From assembly GCF_007859315.1 (NCBI RefSeq), contig NZ_VOHA01000028.1, forward strand, positions 1 through 64,000: a DNA stretch of 64,000 nt, given 5' to 3'. Positions 4,351 to 62,111 of this stretch are shown piece after piece. Within the stretch, counting starts at the first letter, position 1. Every line of letters begins with the position of its first letter. Made by a program: the position numbers and the translations under genes. A model generated the notes under the pieces. It did not search any database, had not been told where the DNA came from, and was given only the letters and a program-made list of their open reading frames with translations. The DNA comes from Reyranella sp. CPCC 100927 (lineage in GTDB: Bacteria > Pseudomonadota > Alphaproteobacteria > Reyranellales > Reyranellaceae).

Positions 4351-4434
4351 TCATCCCGAGCGCAGCGAGGGATCTTCTGCAAGTGACGCACGGGTGCGCC
4401 CGCATCGAAAGATCCCTCGCTAGGCTCGGGATGA
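4351..4434. repeat. REP/MITE-like inverted repeat, copy 1
   Basis: The left end reads TCATCCCGAGCGCAGCGAGG and the right end is its near-perfect reverse complement, with about 35 bases between. It is the first of a family found again at 27497, 34163, 39643 and 62042. It fills the space between two genes on the same strand and could act as a transcriptional barrier. Confidence 0.8.
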
Positions 4435-28206: not shown

Positions 28207-28585
28207 GAGCAAACCCCTCCCTGGATCCAGCCGCAGCAATCGCATCATGGTTTGCCCGCGATGGTGGCGGCATCGTCCATTCGGATGAGATGGCTCGAAA
28301 GCATAGGGATTCAGCAGTTCGCCGATCCAGCAAGCTCCCGAAACGAGATCGATCGTAAGGTCCGTGATGGGGGTATCCGCGGCTCAGGCTTGCAGAAACG
28401 CGACGCGGCCTCACCGGCTTTCAGTTACCGGCATTATAGTATCCGCTATCATCGAAAAGTGAGTCGCTGCCTGCCGTCATCCCGAGCGTAGCGAGGGATC
28501 CTGTGCTTTCGACTCCGGGCTCCGACGCCGTTCACTTTGCACGGGCCGCAGTGCGCGGCTGCCAAAATGTTTAGTTTTGTTCCGC

Positions 28586-34162: not shown

Positions 34163-34245
34163 TCATCCCGAGCGCAGCGAGGGATCTTTCCGGTGTGGCG
34201 CACAGTGCGTCATTGCCACAAGATTCCTCGCTTCGCTCGGAATGA
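34163..34245. repeat. REP/MITE-like inverted repeat, copy 3
   Basis: Ends TCATCCCGAGCGCAGCGAGG and CCTCGCTTCGCTCGGAATGA enclose a core with GGCGCACAGTGCG. It is inserted between purQ and purL, two genes of one operon, so it must be compatible with read-through. Confidence 0.8.
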
Positions 34246-36272: not shown

Positions 36273-37409
36273 ATGGCAAGCGAGCAGATCACCTACGACG
36301 CCGCCTACGACACCGTGGCGCCGGACGATTTCCCGGCCATGATGGCGGTGCCGCGCTACGGCCGCCGCTCGGATGCGTTCGACACCATCATCTCCCAGAC
36401 CCACGATCATTTCTGGGATCCGCTGGACAAGGCCTACATCGACTTCAGCGCTCCGTTCGACATCGATCGCCAGCTCATCATGCCCGAGGACCAGACGCTC
36501 GAGCTGCAATGCGCCGTGATCGACAAGGTGCCGGCCGACCAGCGGATCCGCTTCGCCAACGACCTGACGCACTTTTCCCTCTCGAGCATTCTCCATGGCG
36601 AGCAGGGGGCGTTGTCGCTGTCGGCCAGCCTCTGCCACATCCTGCTCGATCCGGGCGCGCAGGAGTACGCCGCCAACCAGGCGCGCGAGGAGGCCCGTCA
36701 CGTCACCGGCTTCACCAAGTATGTCGCCGCCCGCTGGGGCGAGCCGCTGCCGGTCGGCCCGACCTTGGGTAATCTGCTGACCGAGCTGGTGACGGCGCAC
36801 GAGGTCTACAAGAAGATCGTCGGCATGCAAATGCTGGTCGAGGGCCTGGCGATGGGCGCTTTCGCCACCATCAACGCCAAGACCAACGATCCCACCCTGC
36901 GCCGGCTGATCCAGCTGGTGATGAGCGACGAGGCCTTCCATCATCGCTTCGGTCGCATCTGGGCGCAGAAGACGATCAAGCACCTGACCAAGGAAGAGCA
37001 CCGCAAGGTCGAGGACTGGACGGCGCAGTGCTTCCAGGTGCTGCTGTTCAACCTGATCAATGCCGAGCAGAAGCAGCTCGTCTACCGCAAGTACAACATC
37101 GACTGGCAGTGGGCGCGCGATGCCCTGAAAGAAGCCTTCACCGACGACGACCGGCGTACGCGCATGCAGGACAACACCAACATCTTCCGCGTGCTGATCA
37201 AGACCCTGCTGCATGCCGGCATCATCACCGACCGCACCAAGCCGTTGTACTCGGTGTGGGTCGACATGAAGGAACTCGCCACCGAGAGCGAGGAGATGCC
37301 GGGCGACGTCGTGGCCGAGGAGATGATGGTGACCCTGCGCGAGATCAACGCCAAGCGCCGCCGTATCGTCAGCAAGGATATCGCCCAGCCTGCCGTCGCT
37401 GCCGAGTGA
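36273..37409 (+). CDS. Ferritin-like (diiron) protein of unknown substrate
   Basis: A 378-residue helical protein of the ferritin-like/ribonucleotide-reductase-R2-like superfamily. Candidate iron ligands are in LHGEQGALSL, in REEARHVTGF (E-x-x-H) and in MSDEAFHHRFG (E-x-x-H), the two-motif layout of diiron carboxylate enzymes. No signal peptide is visible. Relatives include oxidases and N-oxygenases, but no closer function can be claimed. It is transcribed away from purC and converges on a membrane protein gene one base after its stop. Confidence 0.7.
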   Translation: MASEQITYDAAYDTVAPDDFPAMMAVPRYGRRSDAFDTIISQTHDHFWDPLDKAYIDFSAPFDIDRQLIMPEDQTLELQCAVIDKVPADQRIRFANDLTHFSLSSILHGEQGALSLSASLCHILLDPGAQEYAANQAREEARHVTGFTKYVAARWGEPLPVGPTLGNLLTELVTAHEVYKKIVGMQMLVEGLAMGAFATINAKTNDPTLRRLIQLVMSDEAFHHRFGRIWAQKTIKHLTKEEHRKVEDWTAQCFQVLLFNLINAEQKQLVYRKYNIDWQWARDALKEAFTDDDRRTRMQDNTNIFRVLIKTLLHAGIITDRTKPLYSVWVDMKELATESEEMPGDVVAEEMMVTLREINAKRRRIVSKDIAQPAVAAE

Positions 37410-38302: not shown

Positions 38303-39055
38303 TCAGAATTGATAGCGTCGCAGACCGCCGTCAACGGGAATGAGCGTGCCGGTGATGTAGCCCGCGCGCGGCGAGGCGAGGAAGCACACCAGGTCGGCGA
38401 TGTCCTGCGGCTCGCCGTAGCGGGCCATCGGGATCTCGTGTTCGGCCTGCCACTGCCGGTACTCGGGCGTGTAGTTGCGCAGGATCTGCTCGCTGTGGAT
38501 CCGGCCCGGCGGGATGCAGTTCACCGTGATGCCGTGCTTGCCGACCTCGCGCGACAGGCCCTTGGCCCACGAGTGCATGGCCGCCTTGGCGCAGAAGGCG
38601 CCATTGATGCCGTCGGGCTCCGACTTGCCGGTGATGTTGATGATGCGCCCCCATTGGCGAGCGATCATCTGGTCGATCAGCAGGTCGGCGATCTGGCGCT
38701 GGCGGATGAAGTTCAGGGTCAGCGCCTCCATCCACTGCGGCTCGGGCGTGTGCAGCTTGAAGGCGCGACTGCCACCGGCGTTGTTGACCAGGATGTCGAC
38801 ATGACCCAGCGCCTCGAGCGCGGCGGCCGTGATGGTAGCGGGCGCCTCCTCGCGCATCAGGTCGCACTCGATGATCGCCGGCTTGATGCCGCCGGTCGCG
38901 GCGATCTCCTGCGCCAGCGCCTCGAGCTTGTCGCGCCGCCGTGCCGTGATCGCCAGCCGCACGCCTTCGCCGGCCAGGGCCTTGGCGATGCCCAGACCGA
39001 TGCCGGCGCTGGTGCCCGTGACCAGCGCCGTCTTGTCCTTCAGTTGCAGGTCCAT
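38303..39055 (-). CDS. Short-chain dehydrogenase/reductase lacking the usual active-site Tyr
   Basis: A 250-residue SDR with the Rossmann motif TGTSAGIG (residues 14-21), the NNAG motif (about 92-95) and a normal C-terminus (PVDGGLRRY). At the active site, where the family has Y-x-x-x-K, the sequence reads NGAFCAKAAM: the Lys is there, the residue four before it is Ala, and a Phe sits beside it. The preceding Ser loop (NITGKSEP) is also three residues shorter. The protein may therefore use another acid, or bind without reducing. It lies 11 bp downstream of the selenoprotein gene and is probably in its operon. Confidence 0.85.
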   Translation of the reverse strand: MDLQLKDKTALVTGTSAGIGLGIAKALAGEGVRLAITARRRDKLEALAQEIAATGGIKPAIIECDLMREEAPATITAAALEALGHVDILVNNAGGSRAFKLHTPEPQWMEALTLNFIRQRQIADLLIDQMIARQWGRIINITGKSEPDGINGAFCAKAAMHSWAKGLSREVGKHGITVNCIPPGRIHSEQILRNYTPEYRQWQAEHEIPMARYGEPQDIADLVCFLASPRAGYITGTLIPVDGGLRRYQF

Positions 39056-39066
39056 ACTCTTCCTCG

Positions 39067-39621
39067 TCAGCTACCCCGCTGCGGCACGATGCAGAAACCC
39101 TGGGCTTCGACATGCAGCGGCACATTGAACTTGCTGCGGAAGTTCTCCAACGCGACGGCCGCCGTCAACTCCACGATCTGCGCCTCGTCGAAGTGCAGCC
39201 TGAGCTGGTCGAACAGGGCATCATCGACACGCTGGCCGGTGATGGTCATGCGTTCGGCATACTCCAGCGCCACGCGCTCGGCGGCGCTGTACAACGTGCT
39301 GGCGCGCCAATCGGCAACCTGCCGCATCTTGGCTTCGCCTTCCTCGCCTTGCATCACACGTGATGCATTGATGTCGATTCAGAAGGGACAGCCGTTGATG
39401 GTGGCAACGCGCAGATAGAGCAGCGCGCGCAGTTGGGCCGGCAACAGGTTCGATTTCTCGACCGCCGCGCTCAGCCGCTTGGCGGCAATCATGATCGGCG
39501 GGCAGTGCGCCATCACCTTGGTCGGGTTCAGCAGGTCGCCGAACGCTTCGCGCTCCTTGCCGAAGATTTCCTTGAGAAGCGGATCATCACCTTCCTCGGT
39601 GATCTCGCGAACACGCGGCAT
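39067..39621 (-). CDS. Carboxymuconolactone decarboxylase/AhpD-like selenoprotein (CxxU), read through UGA
   Basis: Two open frames (39382-39621 and 39067-39378) are in the same phase and separated only by TGA at 39381-39379. Joined, they give 184 residues: an N-terminal helical half with LLPAQLRALLYLRVATINGCPF, then the UGA, then IDINASRVMQGEEGEAK and a normal family C-terminus. In AhpD/CMD proteins this place carries the catalytic C-x-x-C that reduces peroxides; here Cys78 is kept and the second Cys is the UGA codon (position 81). A hairpin of bacterial SECIS type follows 11 nt later. The frame is intact for 103 codons past the UGA, which argues against a dead gene. AhpD-like selenoproteins are known in bacteria. 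The SDR gene follows at 11 bp. Alternative: a nonsense mutation TGC or TGT to TGA. Confidence 0.8.
39350..39367 (-). promoter_or_regulatory. Candidate bacterial SECIS element
   Basis: On the transcript UGCAUC (39367-39362) pairs with GAUGCA (39355-39350) around the loop ACGUGU. The stem starts 11 nt after the UGA, the spacing of the E. coli fdhF element, and G and U occupy loop positions 3 and 4 as in fdhF (AGGUCU). The fdhF stem bulge is not present. Confidence 0.65.
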
Positions 39622-39642
39622 GCAACTCTCCTTTCACATGTG

Positions 39643-39720
39643 TCATTCCGAGCGTAGCGAGGAATCTTTCGCCCAGGGAGTCCCGGCAGCAGAAAAGATT
39701 CCTCGCTGCGCTCGGGATGA
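39643..39720. repeat. REP/MITE-like inverted repeat, copy 4
   Basis: Ends TCATTCCGAGCGTAGCGAGG and CCTCGCTGCGCTCGGGATGA enclose about 38 bases. It lies between the MaoC-like gene and the selenoprotein gene. Confidence 0.8.
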
Positions 39721-62041: not shown

Positions 62042-62111
62042 TCATCCCGAGCGCAGCGAGGGATCTCCTGCGAGCGACGCAGTGCGCCATTACGAGGAGA
62101 TCCCGGGATGA
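62042..62111. repeat. REP/MITE-like inverted repeat, copy 5 (right arm truncated)
   Basis: The left end TCATCCCGAGCGCAGCGAGG is intact; the right arm keeps only GAGATCCCGGGATGA. The core has the GACGCAGTGCG stretch shared with copies 1 and 3. It lies between convergent genes. Confidence 0.75.

Follow-up and report, generated by a model that had tools for sequence, protein, structure and literature searches.

A clade of putative CMD/AhpD-like selenoproteins with a CxxU redox site in Reyranella sp. CPCC 100927 and its relatives

The DNA analysed here, referred to below as the window, comprises the first 64,000 nucleotides of contig NZ_VOHA01000028.1 from Reyranella sp. CPCC 100927. Most probably, one locus on its minus strand is a single functional gene for a CMD/AhpD-like selenoprotein, in which an in-frame UGA is decoded as selenocysteine (Sec); we estimate the probability of this reading at about 0.93. 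Sec at codon 81 is strongly supported by sequence comparison, which shows that the UGA occupies a conserved position within the coding frame and is read as sense, that the Sec machinery of the genome is complete and that a SECIS-like hairpin past the UGA is conserved. An earlier note on this DNA had interpreted the UGA in the same way, and the interpretation is now supported by the Sec machinery, by the TGA of the relatives and by the Cys at position 81 of Cys-containing homologues. The protein is thus a member of a Sec-fixed clade of CMD/AhpD-like CxxU oxidoreductases. The coordinates of the relevant features are compiled in Table 1.

Table 1. Positions of the putative selenoprotein gene, its functional elements and the adjoining gene in the window.
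Feature	Positions	Strand	Remarks
Whole putative selenoprotein gene, CMD/AhpD-like (PF02627)	39067..39621	minus	184 residues, Sec at 81
In-frame TGA, codon 81	39379..39381	minus	second redox residue of CPFU, probably read as Sec
Shine-Dalgarno-like AAAGGAGAG	39626..39634	minus	upstream of the ATG; by eye
Cys78 codon	39388..39390	minus	first residue of the CxxU pair; Cys in 89/89 Sec and 27/27 Cys sequences
Cys177 codon	39091..39093	minus	in the C-terminal QGFC; candidate for a third redox Cys; Cys in 89/89 Sec and 27/27 Cys sequences
SECIS-like hairpin	39350..39367	minus	stem UGCAUCA/UGAUGCA of 7 bp, loop CGUG; starts 11 nt past the UGA
SDR-family oxidoreductase	38303..39055	minus	probable operon partner in the genus; 11-nt gap after the Sec gene; adjoining in 3/4 same-genus genomes

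Reading frame and conservation of the TGA codon

The frame extends from an ATG at 39621-39619 to a terminal TGA at 39069-39067. Its sole break is the TGA at 39381-39379 in the context NGCPF-UGA-IDIN, which is separated from the terminal TGA by 103 sense codons. In the ORF listing the locus appears as two ORFs in the same phase, 39621-39379 (80 aa) and 39357-39067 (96 aa, GTG start). The earlier description of two adjacent same-phase frames parted by this TGA alone is exact in its coordinates, and the downstream frame, described as intact for 103 codons, was confirmed on the minus strand. With C written for U, the protein reaches 45.4 bits against PF02627 and thus passes the gathering cut-off of 23.

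Orthologous loci were read in two sets with partly overlapping genomes, 34 from the same family and 80 from named genomes, which contain 89 distinct coding sequences. Codon 81 is TGA in all 114 loci. A close orthologue with at least 59% identity to the query was found in 34 of the 61 genomes searched; all 34 belong to the family and carry TGA at codon 81, and three family genomes in this search had no close orthologue. For the named genomes the best 80 of 152 relatives were taken, and the TGA found in 80/80 applies to the Sec clade only, since the search used two patterns, of which A[LMF]ENFRSK fits that clade and not the Cys group. No Cys revertants were found among these best 80 of 152, though the pattern NGCPFC[IM]D with its Cys spelling should catch such sequences. 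The pattern that would speak against Sec, TGC or TGT in close relatives and TGA in this strain alone, was not observed in the loci read; the relatives carry TGA, and separate assemblies agree on it.

According to the record titles, the clade includes Vineibacter, Reyranella, other Alphaproteobacteria, Beta- and Gammaproteobacteria and Rokubacteria, where the tree position casts doubt on some of the MAG titles (Klebsiella, Asaia, Rhizobium). Vineibacter is assigned to the same family as Reyranella in the genome collection and to Hyphomicrobiales incertae sedis in the NCBI taxonomy. Few genomes contain the Sec form. In a class sample of 385 genomes, six of the 56 genomes with a match at E <=1e-20 belong to the Sec clade, as do two of the 16 genomes with a match at E <=1e-30 in a phylum sample of 398 genomes.

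Compared with the window gene, the median dN/dS is 0.309 before the UGA and 0.305 after it (86 of 88 pairs usable), and for 250 random pairs it amounts to 0.243 before (234 usable) and 0.291 after (236 usable). These values indicate purifying selection on the parts before and after the UGA alike. A nonsense mutation or a miscalled base, as in a pseudogene or a sequencing error, would agree with the two ORFs of the listing but is refuted by the TGA conserved in 114/114 loci from many assemblies, and it is also opposed by the purifying selection in both halves and by residues conserved almost to the end of the protein, which leaves next to no probability for it.

It is also very improbable that the locus encodes two proteins, one an N-terminal product of 80 residues and the other starting downstream at GTG 39357. 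The 96-aa ORF with its GTG start would be in line with such an arrangement, but the GTG is codon 89 of the gene, at which 58 of the 89 orthologues have GTG and 24 have GGG or GCG. Moreover, CMD homologues are continuous through position 81. On both grounds, two separate products were rejected.

Selenocysteine machinery and the SECIS-like hairpin

The genome (9.08 Mb in 81 contigs, 99.31% complete) contains selA (534.6 bits), selB on the same contig (446.8 bits, cut-off 242.25), selD (271.4 bits, cut-off 125) and a tRNA-Sec with the anticodon TCA. Hence, all four of selA, selB, selC and selD, for which a genome search had been suggested, are present; their absence would have counted against a selenoprotein. 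The formate dehydrogenase alpha chain (1516.5 bits) carries one in-frame TGA. Full-length selA occurs in 34 of 37 family genomes (this genome and 36 relatives) versus two of the 24 other genomes in the search. Among the 34 family genomes that carry a TGA orthologue, 31 contain selA; of the three drafts without it, two contain selB, and the third (89% complete) lacks both genes. The tRNA-Sec gene lies about 4.6 kb from selB (contig L044, 9644-9741 and 14317-16257) and is not nested in it, in contrast to what has been described for some Alphaproteobacteria (PMC8124441). By eye, a Sel1-like gene is located between selA and selB.

The hairpin that the earlier note had placed 11 nt past the UGA, with 6 bp and the loop ACGUGU, is present, and it has 7 bp and the loop CGUG if the closing A-U pair is counted. 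When folded alone it is not significant against dinucleotide shuffles (z = -0.56 and -0.90). Since it is ordinary in this respect, the selenocysteine case could not be proved on the sequence of the window alone. The comparison of relatives, in contrast, indicates that the hairpin is conserved beyond chance and shows compensatory changes. A stem of at least 5 bp, taking the best of two registers, is formed in 85 of the 89 distinct sequences versus 16.5% of synonymous recodings, and the stem is shorter in the other four. If sequences are assigned by the longer stem, the register with a 5-nt loop is found in 68 and that with a 4-nt loop in 21.

Covariation was analysed in two sets. The first consists of 29 loci picked by hand (28 distinct), mostly in the 5-nt-loop register, and 95.9% of its cells are paired. 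It contains 18 double-changed cells versus 3.3 in shuffles (0/500 as high), and the double changes affect four of seven pairs, a number reached by 45 of 500 shuffles. Its covariation of 0.343 compares with 0.120 for shuffles and with no more than 0.128 after sliding. The second set, 14 rows of the 4-nt-loop register (13 distinct) including the window, has a weaker signal with double changes in two pairs, no more than in shuffles; shuffles give a covariation of 0.055 versus its 0.168, but a slide of -2 gives 0.150. Where codon 88 in the loop encodes Arg, it is CGT in 77 of 86 cases, and elsewhere in these genes CGT accounts for 86 of 996 Arg codons. The folding energy of a segment wider than the stem, a weak test for a SECIS, gives a mean z of -0.91 versus synonymous recodings, where control segments from 30 of the 89 sequences range from +0.26 to -0.84. 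An Rfam scan of the window detected no family at gathering score; at a lax limit, the single match was a chance-level FourU on the opposite strand.

Read-through of UGA is known in general, and codon 81 could in principle be read as Trp or another standard amino acid instead of Sec. We consider this highly improbable. In the YnjA-like Cys clade, position 81 is Cys in 27/27 aligned sequences, which is the outcome of the alignment of Cys-containing homologues that had been proposed for this position. Furthermore, the conserved hairpin sits where a SECIS belongs, the gene itself terminates at TGA, and the Sec machinery is present. For these four reasons, the reading as Trp was rejected.

Relatives, active site and possible function

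In the class and phylum searches, members of the Sec clade have profile scores above 320 bits, and those of the Cys clade range from 99 (L157) to 164. A maximum-likelihood tree of 137 rows places 90 Sec rows, the 89 distinct sequences and L158, on one side of a branch (96/87) and beside them the 27 Cys rows (100/99), with both groups joined at 97/84; the tree is unrooted, its bootstrap is not quite settled, and a long-branch warning applies to L157, L182 and L181 among the Cys rows. Because the tree is unrooted, a change from Cys to Sec is likely as the evolutionary direction, not demonstrated. D83, which follows the motif, and a QG(F/L)C at the C-terminal end are common to both clades. Besides the Cys at position 81, the Cys clade differs from the Sec clade at further positions, e.g. 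E159/Q and R162/S. YnjA from E. coli, which is not a row of the tree, has a sequence of the Cys-clade kind and is 36.8% identical to the window protein.

The earlier assignment as AhpD/CMD-like stands as far as the CMD/AhpD-like family is concerned, but it does not extend to AhpD itself. The CxxC redox pair of AhpD proper is matched by C78 and U81, the second residue being predicted as Sec. In contrast, the window protein has A66 and N85 in place of the Glu that precedes and the His that follows CxxC in the solved relatives 2ijc and 2o4d; we take these two residues to be catalytic in AhpD. Consequently, the window protein is not AhpD itself. Position 66 in the Sec clade is A in 46, P in 36, S in 5, N in 1 and E in 1 of 89 sequences, and position 85 is N in 89/89. 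The Cys clade has S in 22, A in 4 and V in 1 at position 66 and N in 26/27 at position 85. As the Cys clade is without Glu and His too, changes of the A66/N85 type are not specific to Sec proteins.

What is generally known about CxxU selenoenzymes suggests how such a protein may be made and may work. SelB and Sec-tRNA would bind the hairpin and decode the UGA as Sec, yielding the CPFU site. The selenolate of U81 would then attack an oxidised substrate, most likely a hydroperoxide or a disulfide, and Cys78 would resolve the intermediate as a selenenylsulfide. A thiol donor would re-reduce the site, perhaps via the invariant Cys177. Since Glu and His are already gone in the Cys sister group, the work of these lost residues may be taken over by selenium with its low pKa. 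Our best guess for the function is a thiol-dependent peroxide or disulfide reductase. We propose only tentatively, and as rather doubtful in its entirety, that in a Sec-fixed clade of several proteobacterial classes and Rokubacteria the acid-base residues of AhpD were lost before selenium replaced sulfur, and that a U81/C78/C177 relay operates instead of the AhpD proton relay, possibly on a non-peroxide substrate.

Alternatively, the selenoprotein could be a reductive dehalogenase like the debrominase Bmp8 (6ohi) rather than a peroxide or disulfide reductase. Bmp8, a CMD-type relative with CxxC aligned over 160 positions, is the first solved relative listed with a specific reaction in its name (59.3 bits, profile positions 11-170), and it has reportedly been compared to the human deiodinases, which are selenoenzymes. 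However, four entries of the CMD family whose names state no reaction reach higher scores (66-75 bits over 123-128 positions), and across genera no conserved neighbour of any kind was observed. Bmp8 has Cys, not Sec, and a His three residues past the second Cys, where the window protein has I84. A dehalogenase is unlikely, and halogenated aromatics are a minor rival to a peroxide or disulfide, which are our first choice of substrate.

Genomic context, known selenoproteins and implications

Genes neighbouring the putative selenoprotein gene in the window are found close by mainly in the same genus and partly in genus g5. In the latter, a FAS1-like dehydratase is nearby, and the SDR is located about 2.5 kb off on the other side. 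Beyond these two genera there are only distant SDR matches with 29-33%, which are possibly unrelated. Clustering of flanking ORFs at the 80 named loci yielded partners within Reyranella-like genomes, the largest real cluster comprising 20/80, and no partner common to the whole clade; the flanking ORFs were chosen by length, and some clusters are therefore wrong-strand ORFs. The protein encoded at positions 36273-37409 resembles AurF and aldehyde decarbonylase weakly, with scores below the cut-off, and is conserved near this region in same-genus genomes only. The repeat CGAGCGNAGCGAGGAATCT has eight matches with at most three mismatches in the window versus 0.19 expected (4357-4428, 28483-28501, 34169-34239, 39649-39714 and 62048-62066). 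In three places it forms an inverted pair, and one of these pairs lies immediately upstream of the putative selenoprotein gene.

That bacterial AhpD-like selenoproteins are known, as the earlier note had stated, agrees with the literature, where those with a CxxU motif have been in print since 2005 (PMC1088965, PMC2398784, PMC1794560, PMC13188914, PMC9312934). Reported are 27 AhpD-like selenoprotein sequences from the Sargasso Sea set (PMC1088965), 299 and 70 from the GOS set (PMC2398784) and several entries in a 2026 review (PMC13188914). In what these sources give, AhpD-like 1 (COG2128), AhpD-like 2 and CMD-like (PF02627) selenoproteins are of the same family, with Sec as the second residue of CxxC and a SECIS past the UGA; their comparison with our clade is one of family names, counts and example accessions, not of sequences. 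In a full-text literature search for selenoprotein with Reyranella or Rokubacteria, the titles matched concern other subjects.

The best NCBIfam match is NF053654, 'YciW-related (seleno)protein', aligned over 1-175 of its 179 positions. The window protein (137.8 bits) and six other clade members (125.7-156.7) are far below its cut-off of 310, and the Sec clade is therefore not covered by this model, against which a Cys-clade protein scores 129.8 bits. The suggestion that routine annotation misses the gene thus holds for NCBIfam only, where none of the four listed models reaches its cut-off, and a plain ORF listing splits the gene.

Two further groups of AhpD-like genes with an in-frame TGA were noticed. 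The first, with the motif CYY/CFY-UGA-IPTH, occurs in nine same-family genomes (L048-L056) with a hairpin-like stretch past the UGA by eye, and is absent among the five matches of the window genome. The second, CKY/CAH-UGA-ISHN (L159, L160, L161), comes from a different alphaproteobacterial family, in which it was seen in two genomes that both contain selB.

In summary, the locus adds a well-supported clade of predicted selenoproteins that lies outside the NCBIfam models and is split in two by a plain ORF listing. Since neighbouring Sec and Cys clades both are without the Glu and His of AhpD, it becomes testable whether selenium compensates for the missing acid-base residues.
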